Below are positions 51,426 to 55,461 of a stretch of DNA of 57,268 nt, piece after piece; positions within the stretch are counted from its first letter, which is position 1; each line of letters opens with the position of its first letter. Origin of the DNA: Candidatus Methylomirabilota bacterium (GTDB lineage Bacteria > Methylomirabilota > Methylomirabilia > Rokubacteriales > CSP1-6); NCBI GenBank assembly GCA_035709005.1, contig DASTFB010000012.1, positions 1 through 57,268 of the forward strand. The letters run 5' to 3'. The notes under the pieces are model-generated. The model searched no databases. It was not told the origin of the DNA and was given only the letters and a program-made list of their open reading frames with translations. Both the position numbers and the translations under genes were made by a program.

Positions 51426-51656
51426 CTAGGCGGCGAGGTCGCGGGCTTGATAGCGGTGACGGTCTCCGTTCTGGACCAGCCGGGGCCGCTTGCCGAAACG
51501 ACCGAAGTACCAGGCCTCGTAGCACTCCCGGTGATAGGTGCCGGTCGGCGTGCTCACCTGGGGGGCATATCGCGCAACCAGCATGAAGCAGCGTCCGCAT
51601 GGCGGCGCGCCTTTCATGTCGACGTCGACGACGTGATCCTTCATGGCCTCGCCCAT
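51426..51656 (-). CDS. Small LIM-half-like zinc-binding protein, unknown role
   Basis: 76 residues; ATG 51656 (AGGAAAGG just upstream) or ATG 51644. Cysteine and histidine spacing is C20-x2-C23-x18-H42-x2-C45 (PPCGRC and YHRECYEAW), which matches the first zinc finger of a LIM domain. The C-terminal part is basic (RFGKRPRLVQNGDRHRYQ). It may bind nucleic acid or a protein partner. It lies 12 bases upstream of the lyase gene in the same direction. Not recognised as a named family. Confidence 0.6.
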   Translation of the reverse strand: MGEAMKDHVVDVDMKGAPPCGRCFMLVARYAPQVSTPTGTYHRECYEAWYFGRFGKRPRLVQNGDRHRYQARDLAA

Positions 51657-51812: not shown

Positions 51813-54053
51813 TTACATCCGGTCGTCGGGCAGGCCCTCGCGTTCCACCGCGGGCCGGGCAACCCGGGCCAGCTCGCTGAGCAACCGGCCAGCCCAGCGA
51901 TAGATGTTCTGCTCGTGGACCTGAGCGCGCAGGCGGGCCATGCGCGCCTTGCGCTCGCTCTCCGGCATCTCGAGCGCGCGGCGGATGGCGGCGGCCGTGT
52001 CCTCGATGTCGTAGGGGTTCACCAGGAGCGCGTCGACCAGCTCCCGGGAGGCGCCGGTGAACCGGCTGAGGATCAGCACCCCATCGTCGTCGTCCCGAGC
52101 GGCGACGTACTCCTTGGCGACGAGATTCATCCCGTCGTGCAGCGCGGTCACCATGCAGAAGTCGGCCGCCCGGTAGAAGGCCCGGATCTCCCGATGGTCG
52201 TGATGCCGCTCACGGTAGACGATGGGGCGCCAGCCCCGCTCGCCGATCTCATCGTTGATGGCCCGCACGATGGCGCGGGTCTCTTCCTGCAGGGCGTGGT
52301 AGCGCGCGATCCGCGTCCGGCTCGGGGAGGCGATCTGCACGAACACCAGCCGCCGGCGGTACTCCGGCCACCGCTCGAAGAAGCGCCGCACGGCCCTGAG
52401 ACGCTCGGGCAATCCCTTCGTGTAATCGATGCGGTCCACCCCCACGCCCAGGAACTCGGCGGACACCCCCAGCTCGGCCATGACCGCAGGCCGGGGAATG
52501 GGCAGCCCCTCGTGGGGGCTGTCGGTGGCCACGCTGATCGGGAAGGGCAGCACGTGAGTCGTGTGCTGGCCGCGCACGACCGTGAAGTGATCCCATTCCA
52601 CGCGGCCCTCGATGGCTCGCTCGACGGTCTCCAGGAAGTTGTTGCAGTGGAACTGGGTGTGGAAGCCGATCAAGTCGGCACCCAACATCCCCAGGAGGAT
52701 CTCCTCCTGCCACGGACAGATCCCGAACGCCTCGACGTTGGGCCAGGGAATGTGCCAGAACAGCGCGACACGGGCGTCCGGGCGCTCGCGCTTGATCATC
52801 AAGGGCAGCGCGGCGAAGTGGTAGTCCTGGACGAGAACCGTGGGTGCCTCGGTCTTCTCCATCTCTTCGAGCAGCGTGTCCGCGAACTTCTGGTTGACGG
52901 CGCGGTAGTGCTCCCAGTCGTCGGCCCGGAACCGCGGGCGCTCGTGCACGATGTGGCAGAGCGGCCACAGCCCCTCGTTGGCGAAGCCGTAGTAGTACCC
53001 GGCTTCTTCCTCGGGGGTGAGCCAGACTCGCCGCAGCGTGTATGTGGGGTCGTCGAAGGGGAGGCCGATGCGCTGCCCGACGGCCCGGTCGGCATCGCCG
53101 CTGCCGTGGGCGACCCAGACACCTCCGCACGCGAGCATGATCGGCTCCAGGGCCGAGACCAAACCACTGGCCGGCTGCAGCTGCCGCACCGTCTTGCCGT
53201 CGATGATATGGGTGACCGGCTCGCGGTTGGACACCACGAAGATCGGGTGCCCCCCGAAGCGCATCTGGACGAACTGCTTCAGGCGCTCCTCCGTCCATAC
53301 CGTCTCGCCGAGGAGTCTCAGCCGGGCTTCTTGCTCGGCCGCCGAGCGGGCCCGGGACAGCGAGCGAGCCAGGCCGGTGACCTCGCCGGCCAGATGGCCG
53401 AACAGGCTGGCGTCGGCATCGGGCGGCGGCACGACCGGTTGCCCGGCTTTCAGTTGCTTCGTCCACTCGGCGATCCGTGCGATGGGGCGGGTCACCGTCC
53501 ACCGGACGAGCAGCCAGGTGATGCCCGTCAAGAGGAGGACGAGCACCCCCAGGCGGACGGCCGAGCGTCGCCAGAGGCTCCATTCCTGCGTCTCGAGGAC
53601 GGCGGCGTCGAGGAGGACGGCGACAGCGCCCACGACCTGGTCGTCGCGCTCCAGCGGCACCGCCCACACCAGCCGGGACAGGCCCCCCACGCTGCGGAAG
53701 TCGCGCGTGCTCCCCCGCGAGCGCATGGCGTCGGAGATGATGGGCGACAGCGGGGGCAGATGCGGCTTGACCTCGGACGTGGCGTCGATGACGCTGCCGA
53801 ACTGGTCGTAGATGGCAATGGCCCGGTCCGGTCGGCCGAACCGCTTGAGGATGCGGTCGTAGCCGCCCCGAGCCTGCCGGGCGACCAGCGGCTCGGCGGC
53901 CTCTCGGACGGCGTCGGCGGCGAGGGCGGCGCGGCGGCCCAGATCCTGGACCAGACGCTTGCGCTCCTGGCGCACCTCCAGATAGGTGAAGAGCACGGTC
54001 ACGATGAGCGTGACCAGGCCGATAGCGCCGAGCAGTCGCAGGAGAAACCGCAT
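51813..54053 (-). CDS. otsA: Membrane-anchored sensor/HAMP - trehalose-6-phosphate synthase (GT20) fusion
   Basis: 746 residues. N-terminal helix 1 (about 4-24), an extracytoplasmic region of about 140 residues ([39 protein letters not shown], like a sensor domain), helix 2 (about 167-185), a HAMP linker starting [20 protein letters not shown], a short helical connector, then a complete GT20 domain from about 270: [54 protein letters not shown] and [13 protein letters not shown]. It would join UDP- or GDP-glucose and glucose-6-phosphate to trehalose-6-phosphate. Tying that activity to a membrane sensor suggests direct control by an external signal such as osmotic stress. No trehalose-phosphatase (otsB) is in the window. 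Confidence 0.9.
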
Positions 54054-54089: not shown

Positions 54090-55325
54090 TCACGCACCGA
54101 ACTTGGCGAGCCTCAGCGCGTTGGCCATGATCAGGGGCATGAGGTGCTGCGCAGCCAGCACCCCCAGGCTGCCTGCCGCGCAGGCGCGCTCCGAGAAGGC
54201 ACCGACGGGGTCGGCCCCGCAGTAGCGGCTCCACAGCACCACGGGCACGGGTTGCCAGCCGTGACCGGCCAGGACGGCGGGGCTGGCATGGTCGCCGGTG
54301 ACGGTCAACACGTCGGGCCCCAGCCGCTCGATCTCAGGCAGGTAGCCGTCCAGCCGCTCCAGCGCCGCGACCTTGGCCGTGAAATCTCCGTCCTCACCCG
54401 CCTTGTCGGTGTCCTTGTAATGCAGGAAGACGAAATCGTACGTCTCCCAGTGCTGGCGCAGGGTCTCCACCTCATCGGCGAACGTGGCCCCCGTCTTCAG
54501 CACCTCCATGCCGACCAGCCTGGCCAGCCCCCGGTACATCGGGTACGCGGCGATCGCGGCCGCTCGGAGCCGGAACACGTCGGGAAACCGCGGGAGGTCG
54601 GGCCGCCGATCGAAGCCCCGGAGCAGGACCATGTTGGCGGGGGCGGCATCGCTCAGCAGGCGGCGGGCCTGCTCCACGAATGCGTTGACCAGCCCGGCCG
54701 TCCGCTCCGCCGCGGGATCCAGGGCGCGCGCGGGCAGCGGCGGTTTGCCCAGCGCCTGAGGGTCGGTCTCGCTCAGGCTGCCGCTCAGGCCGACGCCCCG
54801 GAGCACCAGGACGAATCGATGCTCCTTCACGGGCTCGACGAACAACTCGACCCCTGGCAGCTGGATGGCCCTCAGGCGCTCGGTGAGCCGGGTGCAGACC
54901 TCGGTGGAGATGCGACCGGCCCGTCGATCGGTGATCAGCCCGTCGGCGTCGACGGTGCAGAAGTTGCCGCGGGCGGCGACATCCCCGGGCCTGAGGTCGA
55001 ACTCGATCCCCAGCGCTTCGAGCACACCTCGGCCCACCCGGTAGGCGAGCGGGTCATATCCGAACAACCCCAGATGACCCGGCCCGCTGCCCGGCGTGAT
55101 CCCGGGCGCCACGTGGCGGATCAGGCCGCAGGCCCCGCGCCCGGCCAGCGCCGTCAGGTTCGGAATCCGCGCCGTCTCCAGCTCCGATCGCCCCGTATCG
55201 GGATGGGGAAGCCCGCCCAGCCCGTCGAGGGAAAGGAGCAGGATCTTCGTATCGCCTGGGATGACCAGGTCGTTGAGCAGGTCCAGCACCTGCCCAGTGT
55301 ACCGCGAGAAGGCCGCGCCGGGCAT
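54090..55325 (-). CDS. apgM: 2,3-bisphosphoglycerate-independent phosphoglycerate mutase, archaeal (ApgM) type
   Basis: 411 residues from ATG 55325; GTG 55289, just before LDLLNDLV, is an alternative since the family usually begins near there and the upstream sequence has no clear ribosome site. Metal and catalytic motifs of the alkaline-phosphatase superfamily: LLLSLDGLGGLPHPDTG at the start, APGITPGSGPGHLGLFGYDP with the catalytic Ser region, FVFLHYKDTDKAGEDGDF and TVTGDHASP near the end. It interconverts 3- and 2-phosphoglycerate in glycolysis and gluconeogenesis. It follows the divergently placed FAH-family gene and precedes the HAMP-OtsA gene by 36 bases in the same direction. Confidence 0.92.
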   Translation of the reverse strand: MPGAAFSRYTGQVLDLLNDLVIPGDTKILLLSLDGLGGLPHPDTGRSELETARIPNLTALAGRGACGLIRHVAPGITPGSGPGHLGLFGYDPLAYRVGRGVLEALGIEFDLRPGDVAARGNFCTVDADGLITDRRAGRISTEVCTRLTERLRAIQLPGVELFVEPVKEHRFVLVLRGVGLSGSLSETDPQALGKPPLPARALDPAAERTAGLVNAFVEQARRLLSDAAPANMVLLRGFDRRPDLPRFPDVFRLRAAAIAAYPMYRGLARLVGMEVLKTGATFADEVETLRQHWETYDFVFLHYKDTDKAGEDGDFTAKVAALERLDGYLPEIERLGPDVLTVTGDHASPAVLAGHGWQPVPVVLWSRYCGADPVGAFSERACAAGSLGVLAAQHLMPLIMANALRLAKFGA

Positions 55326-55461
55326 GGTGGGGGGGAGGGAGTGGGTGGGGGTGGCGAGACCACGCCGTTGGAGTCCATCTGACCGGTGGCGGCTGGGCTC
55401 CATCTCACCGGCGGCGGCCGTCCGTCCGACGATGGGAAACGGCTCTCGCCACCCCGGCTGG

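Follow-up and report, generated by a model that had tools for sequence, protein, structure and literature searches.

We report that P0001, a protein of 746 aa encoded on the reverse strand (positions 51813-54053) of the window, i.e. the whole 57,268-nucleotide stretch of DNA analysed here, is predicted to be a membrane receptor with an enzyme of sugar metabolism as its output, in other words a receptor-gated trehalose-6-phosphate synthase. On the basis of sequence comparisons and structure models we give this reading a probability of roughly 0.6. The gene is one intact open reading frame with zero internal stops, and from the N-terminus its product comprises a transmembrane helix (TM1), a single Cache (PDC) domain, a second transmembrane helix (TM2), a divergent HAMP domain, a coiled-coil helix and a GT20 domain. 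The component families are known, and as far as the openly searchable literature goes, where no description of a HAMP-GT20 protein was found, a HAMP receptor with a GT20 output represents a new combination among HAMP-coupled receptor enzymes; domain databases may list the architecture. P0001 is the sole GT20 match in its genome (other matches: 0). The predicted features of the protein and its two neighbours are as follows.

51813..54053, reverse strand: complete TM1-sCache-TM2-HAMP-coiled coil-GT20 gene (P0001, 746 aa)
53988..54044, reverse strand: TM1, residues 4-22 (hydropathy 2.43; start of model helix 2-58)
53559..53984, reverse strand: extracytoplasmic single-Cache (PDC) sensor, approximately residues 24-165 (AlphaFold2 N-terminal model; VIA)
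53505..53561, reverse strand: TM2, residues 165-183 (hydropathy 2.22)
53346..53510, reverse strand: divergent HAMP, residues 182-236, with AS1 to 202, connector 203-214 and AS2 from 215 (sub-threshold in Pfam; hhalign with shuffled controls; helix-gap-helix in the model)
53256..53345, reverse strand: AS2 extension and linker helix, residues 237-266 (W253 and L258 in 108/108 homologues)
51867..53240, reverse strand: GT20 (trehalose-6-phosphate synthase) domain, residues 272-729 (PF00982; fold match to OtsA 5jij)
54090..55403, reverse strand: ApgM-type phosphoglycerate mutase gene, 36 bp upstream of P0001, a conserved neighbour in the window's clade
51426..51644, reverse strand: small CxxC...HxxC protein of 72 aa, downstream of the synthase and conserved in the window's clade

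The first-pass annotation had proposed two transmembrane helices around approximately 140 residues, followed by a HAMP-like linker and a complete GT20 domain with the main motifs, all in one protein. This layout is borne out by the profiles, the structure matches and the intact reading frame: the hydropathy peaks lie at residues 4-22 and 165-183 with about 142 residues between them, the linker matches kinase HAMPs in spite of its sub-threshold Pfam score, and the GT20 active-site residues are kept.

The enzyme domain is matched by PF00982 over residues 272-729 with 382.8 bits (cut-off 32.5; E 3e-114), and the nearest solved fold of this part is the trehalose-6-phosphate synthase OtsA (5jij; Z 42.5, rmsd 2.3, 447 aligned). 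At 104 GT20 columns the conservation among 103 other homologues is 97% or higher, and P0001 retains every one of them. The residues which we take to form the OtsA active site are, in E. coli numbering with Met, R10, G23, Y77, W86, D131, H155, R263, K268, R301, D362 and E370; all donor and acceptor residues of the E. coli reference are present in P0001, and each is found in 114-117 of 117 homologues. The family differs from E. coli OtsA in W42 to H316 (94/117), R361 to H639 (115/117) and G22 to S296 (102/117). Thus OtsA (GT20; Mycobacterium thermoresistibile 5jij and E. coli 1uqt) and P0001 have the fold and the key donor/acceptor residues in common, whereas OtsA is without TM helices, Cache and HAMP, P0001 is at most 37-38% identical to the solved OtsA structures, and the changes of W42 and R361 to H lie near the active site. 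The NCBIfam OtsA equivalog model TIGR02400 gives 424.9 bits, which is under its cut-off of 564.85, and by sequence the P0001 GT20 is classified as TPS-like, outside the OtsA equivalog class. Its acceptor is probably glucose-6-phosphate, the exact acceptor being uncertain because the equivalog cut-off is missed and because of the acceptor-side substitutions W42 to H316 and R361 to H639.

An AlphaFold2 model of whole P0001 has a mean pLDDT of 82.6 and a pTM of 0.64. Foldseek and VIA searches with this full model covered the GT20 only (residues 265-735), and the N-terminus was therefore folded, using 73 sequences, and searched separately. The resulting model (pLDDT 84.3) has a TM1 helix at residues 2-58, a PAS-like sheet, a TM2-AS1 helix at 151-202 and, after a gap, helices at 215-251 and 255-266. 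Over residues 1-254 it is most similar to full-length WalK, for which the coordinates (9a5d) come from integrative modelling and not from a crystal (253 aligned at rmsd 3.4, Z 15.4; Foldseek E 1.8e-12), and VIA also aligned it with crystal structures of the Cache domains of CitA (2j80; Z 14.5, rmsd 2.3, 117 aligned) and WalK (4ywz; Z 13.9, rmsd 2.4, 132 aligned). These comparisons place a WalK/CitA-like Cache outside the inner membrane, between the two predicted TM helices. The part between these helices consists of a long N-terminal helix and one PAS-like sheet, as in a single Cache, so the dCache that the first-pass annotation had considered for these approximately 140 residues was rejected. 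Pfam sCache models gave only weak matches, in few relatives, a dCache_1 match in L126, another relative, is likewise weak (24.1 bits, cut-off 45), and approximately residues 126-244 of P0001 have below-cut-off NCBIfam matches to the sensor kinases CreC, AtoS and WalK. The sensor columns kept in at least 85% of 108 homologues are E30, L38, F72, position 78, P133, G142, D149 and W161, and no shared polar ligand-contact residue is prominent among them.

For the HAMP domain, Pfam alone is misleading. PF00672 matches residues 182-234 of P0001 with 15.5 bits, below the cut-off of 25, and when relatives were scanned singly it reached E ≤ 0.05 in 11 out of 36 (best 1.6e-5). We therefore rely on a profile built from the first 268 residues in 108 homologues and compared with six histidine kinases, one (L075) from the window's own genome and five from relatives' loci; the four of these six that were scanned with Pfam have HAMP scores of 48-57 bits each, plus HisKA and HATPase_c. 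Residues 1-268 matched the kinases with a probability of 99.7 (E 4.5e-27, 246 columns), residues 26-160 with 98.1, and residues 184-236 with 95.7 (E 9.1e-9, hhalign), the last over the kinase HAMP. Five column shuffles each of 182-250 (0-0.9%) and 26-160 all gave at most 0.9%, and an unrelated membrane family gave 0.1% against the N-terminal profile. Within the HAMP-like stretch P190 is found in 98/108 and E224 in 105/108 homologues, and it is followed by a W-T-x-x-x-L element with W253 and L258 invariant (108/108); the DExG motif of the comparison kinases is missing from the P0001 HAMP. The model gives AS1, connector and AS2 as a helix at 151-202, a gap and a helix at 215-251, in a monomer of low confidence here (pLDDT 51-60 for the HAMP in the full model). 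Because of the profile-profile match to kinase HAMPs that pass Pfam, the shuffled controls and the structural match to WalK over residues 1-254, residues 182-236 are assigned as a divergent HAMP homologous to those of sensor kinases; the lack of a HAMP-like fold in the linker, an outcome that the first-pass annotation had listed as fatal to its reading, was thus not encountered. P0001 is not itself a sensor histidine kinase, since neither HisKA nor HATPase_c was detected in it at E ≤ 1 (Pfam). The kinase L075 has the same sensor followed by a canonical HAMP, HisKA and HATPase. The likeness to WalK/CitA/DcuS-type histidine kinases thus extends end to end over TM1, single Cache, TM2 and HAMP; these kinases continue into HisKA/HATPase, and P0001 has a glycosyltransferase as output instead.

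The architecture is widespread, as a survey of other genomes proposed in the first-pass annotation shows. In the window's phylum 65/95 genomes gave a match to P0001 at E ≤ 1e-30, and 50/95 gave a full-length one, a count that excludes the split matches of G007, G082 and G088; in at least five genomes the GT20 match starts only at residue 255-257. In two draft genomes (L067 in G007, and G088:C147) the synthase gene is split between two or more matches or frames, which may reflect error or decay. Elsewhere, named genomes gave at least 588 matching stretches, the best 80 of which were retained as loci, a list biased toward fused GT20s. These best 80 of at least 588 come from Rokubacteria, Methylomirabilis, Nitrospirae, Acidobacteria, Omnitrophota, Elusimicrobia, Gemmatimonadetes, Bacteroidota (including the cultured Niastella soli), Patescibacteria groups, WOR-1, Edwardsbacteria and Goldbacteria, where single placements may be wrong because most loci are from metagenome bins. 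From them came 72 stop-free proteins with a length of 700 aa or more; the other eight loci, excluded from the 108-sequence set, were L117 (stop in the extended frame), L124, L132, L155 and L156 (truncated), and L136, L146 and L147 (sensor-less). L010 and L024, with one internal TGA each, were excluded from A1. Both TM peaks around a Cache-sized stretch are present in 106/108 full-length homologues, from Acidobacteria to Patescibacteria. A joining error or chimera, i.e. two separate genes fused by mistake, which the first-pass annotation had named as what would overturn its reading, is rejected on the strength of the 50/95 full-length genomes and the 72/80 loci. In a GT20 tree of 121 tips, which included six non-fused GT20s (OtsA among them) and left out a relative from Aminobacter, all 115 tips that are fused or derived group together (support 0.909).

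All parts of P0001 are under purifying selection, with dN/dS values of 0.29-0.31 for the sensor, 0.11-0.13 for HAMP plus linker, where it is strongest, and 0.17 for GT20; together with the 50/95 full-length genomes this puts the architecture beyond chance. Identity across phyla is lowest in the sensor (27%, compared to 57% in GT20), as expected of receptors whose ligands differ.

HAMP receptors are textbook relays to kinases, cyclases and chemotaxis proteins, and the known HAMP-coupled receptor enzymes include membrane adenylate cyclases and diguanylate cyclases, the products of which are second messengers. Like P0001, the HAMP-coupled cyclases are one-protein receptors in which HAMP leads into the catalytic domain; the output of P0001 differs in belonging to carbohydrate metabolism. 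In the mechanism that we propose, P0001 would dimerise via its TM helices and HAMP, a ligand or the state of the envelope at the Cache would shift TM2 and HAMP, and the AS2-linker helix would then reposition the acceptor-side (N) lobe of GT20, at the start of which lie R277, an acceptor residue, and the loop S296-G297. The outcome would be that synthesis of trehalose-6-phosphate (T6P), a precursor of the stress sugar trehalose, from nucleotide-glucose and glucose-6-phosphate is raised or lowered. The AS2 helix runs through the invariant W-T-x-x-x-L into the helix just before the first GT20 strand, and in the model this AS2-to-GT20 helix beside R277 would be the obvious path for the signal.

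Some relatives bear on whether the N-terminus senses at all. It is possible, albeit unlikely, that it chiefly fixes the synthase to the inner membrane as a dimer, with sensing weak or lost, and that several anchors, Cache-HAMP among them, can stand in for one another. Such an anchor or scaffold would fit L136, L146 and L147 (Omnitrophota and Elusimicrobia), where the Cache is absent and TM plus a HAMP-like region is retained before GT20 (Pfam HAMP had no match in the scanned stretch of L147), and it would also fit P0002 (WP_083948901.1) from plasmid pAA02 of Aminobacter aminovorans, named plain "trehalose-6-phosphate synthase" by NCBI. P0002 is 52% identical to P0001 from residue 253, with the W-T helix shared, but by eye it has one TM helix and a linker without Cache or HAMP. 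That the sensor evolves fastest of the parts of P0001 is likewise in line with an anchor. However, nearly all full-length homologues over many phyla keep the two TM helices and the Cache-sized stretch, the sensor is itself constrained, and the constraint on HAMP plus linker exceeds that on the enzyme. Neither the kept sensor nor the constrained HAMP and linker would be needed in a plain anchor. Since there are relatives without the sensor that are still membrane-anchored, anchoring is separable from sensing and perhaps of equal importance. The plasmid GT20 of Aminobacter (L157, 3782-5599) lies near genes for an amylo-alpha-1,6-glucosidase and a HAD hydrolase. Standalone relatives are also present: L068-L070 encode 493-495 aa without the TM-Cache-HAMP N-terminus, and their origin through sensor loss is not favoured as L068-L070, L072 and L073 fall outside the 115-tip group, in a tree with few non-fused tips.

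In many relatives otsB abuts the synthase gene, often with a 4-base overlap, and a match to the otsB model was found within 3 kb at 50/80 named loci (best 80 of at least 588; flanks truncated in some). The otsB neighbour of most relatives is a further likeness to OtsA and gives indirect support to T6P synthesis. In Methylomirabilis-like genomes the synthase and otsB are directly followed by a sensor histidine kinase (L064, 11929-13470; L065, 6858-8339; L066, 13071-14567) that shares the Cache-HAMP N-terminus of the synthase. The window belongs to a clade of 12 tips (support 1.0) without adjacent otsB, where the usual gene order is an FAA-hydrolase family gene, apgM, the synthase and the small CxxC...HxxC protein, for which there was no Pfam match at E ≤ 0.5. 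Absence of otsB was judged by HMM; at five loci the gene calls showed an antisense frame where the HMM finds otsB. The separate otsB that the first-pass annotation had suggested looking for is missing, with 0 matches to PF02358 (OtsB family) in the window's genome, and PF02358 is absent from 11/13 genomes of the clade, two of which (G007 and G033) were placed in it by identity and gene order, outside the tree; G010 and G030 carry it away from the synthase. Among 35 other genomes, three were without a homologue at E ≤ 1e-30 and 30 of the remaining 32 have PF02358. G010 has a second GT20 (L072, 9037-11400), 39% identical, in the same open frame as a trehalose-phosphatase match. Without otsB, P0001 alone would stop at T6P unless another phosphatase acts, and since TreS, TreZ and TreT homologues are present in the window's genome it is not the sole trehalose route. 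Hence the earlier proposal that an envelope signal is turned into an osmolyte within one protein holds in that sensor, HAMP and GT20 occur together, and is incomplete for this genome in that OtsB is lacking and the product would be T6P. As judged from sequence, the path from signal to osmolyte within a single protein is plausible; T6P in the window's clade would most likely be dephosphorylated by a non-OtsB phosphatase, or else be used as such.

In another reading T6P, or a related glycosyl-phosphate, would itself be the signal in the window's clade: the receptor would set its level in the cell, and other proteins would read it with no conversion to trehalose by OtsB. We consider this highly doubtful. 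The neighbouring otsB was lost once, in the well-supported 12-tip clade, PF02358 is rare there and nearly general in the other genomes with a homologue, the GT20 active site is intact, and trehalose can be made by the TreS, TreZ or TreT homologues, all of which agree with such a role. On the other hand, there is no known target that binds T6P here, the dephosphorylation may fall to another HAD or alkaline-phosphatase-type enzyme, and the genomes are drafts. That the upstream ApgM-type protein took over from OtsB as T6P phosphatase is very improbable: apgM precedes the synthase on its strand by 3-51 bp at 12/12 clade loci with the gap recorded, and its product has an alkaline-phosphatase superfamily fold (PF01676), but the ApgM family PF10143 is present in 43/48 genomes regardless of otsB, usually as a single copy, and G016 holds apgM, synthase and otsB together. 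Being near-ubiquitous and independent of otsB, ApgM is probably an ordinary housekeeping phosphoglycerate mutase.

T6P is known as an intracellular signal in plants, and we know of no such role in bacteria. A wider reading, that P0001 represents a widespread receptor class with a metabolic glycosyltransferase as direct output, in which T6P became an intracellular signal of envelope state in the otsB-less clade, is highly doubtful. If true, this receptor class would join signal to sugar without a kinase, a cyclase or gene regulation. A HAMP receptor ending in a glycosyltransferase of primary metabolism would represent direct envelope control of osmolyte synthesis, in an architecture that spans many phyla including the reduced Patescibacteria, and its natural variants, in which the sensor is lost and the anchor kept or otsB is lost, would make the roles of sensing, anchoring and T6P separable.
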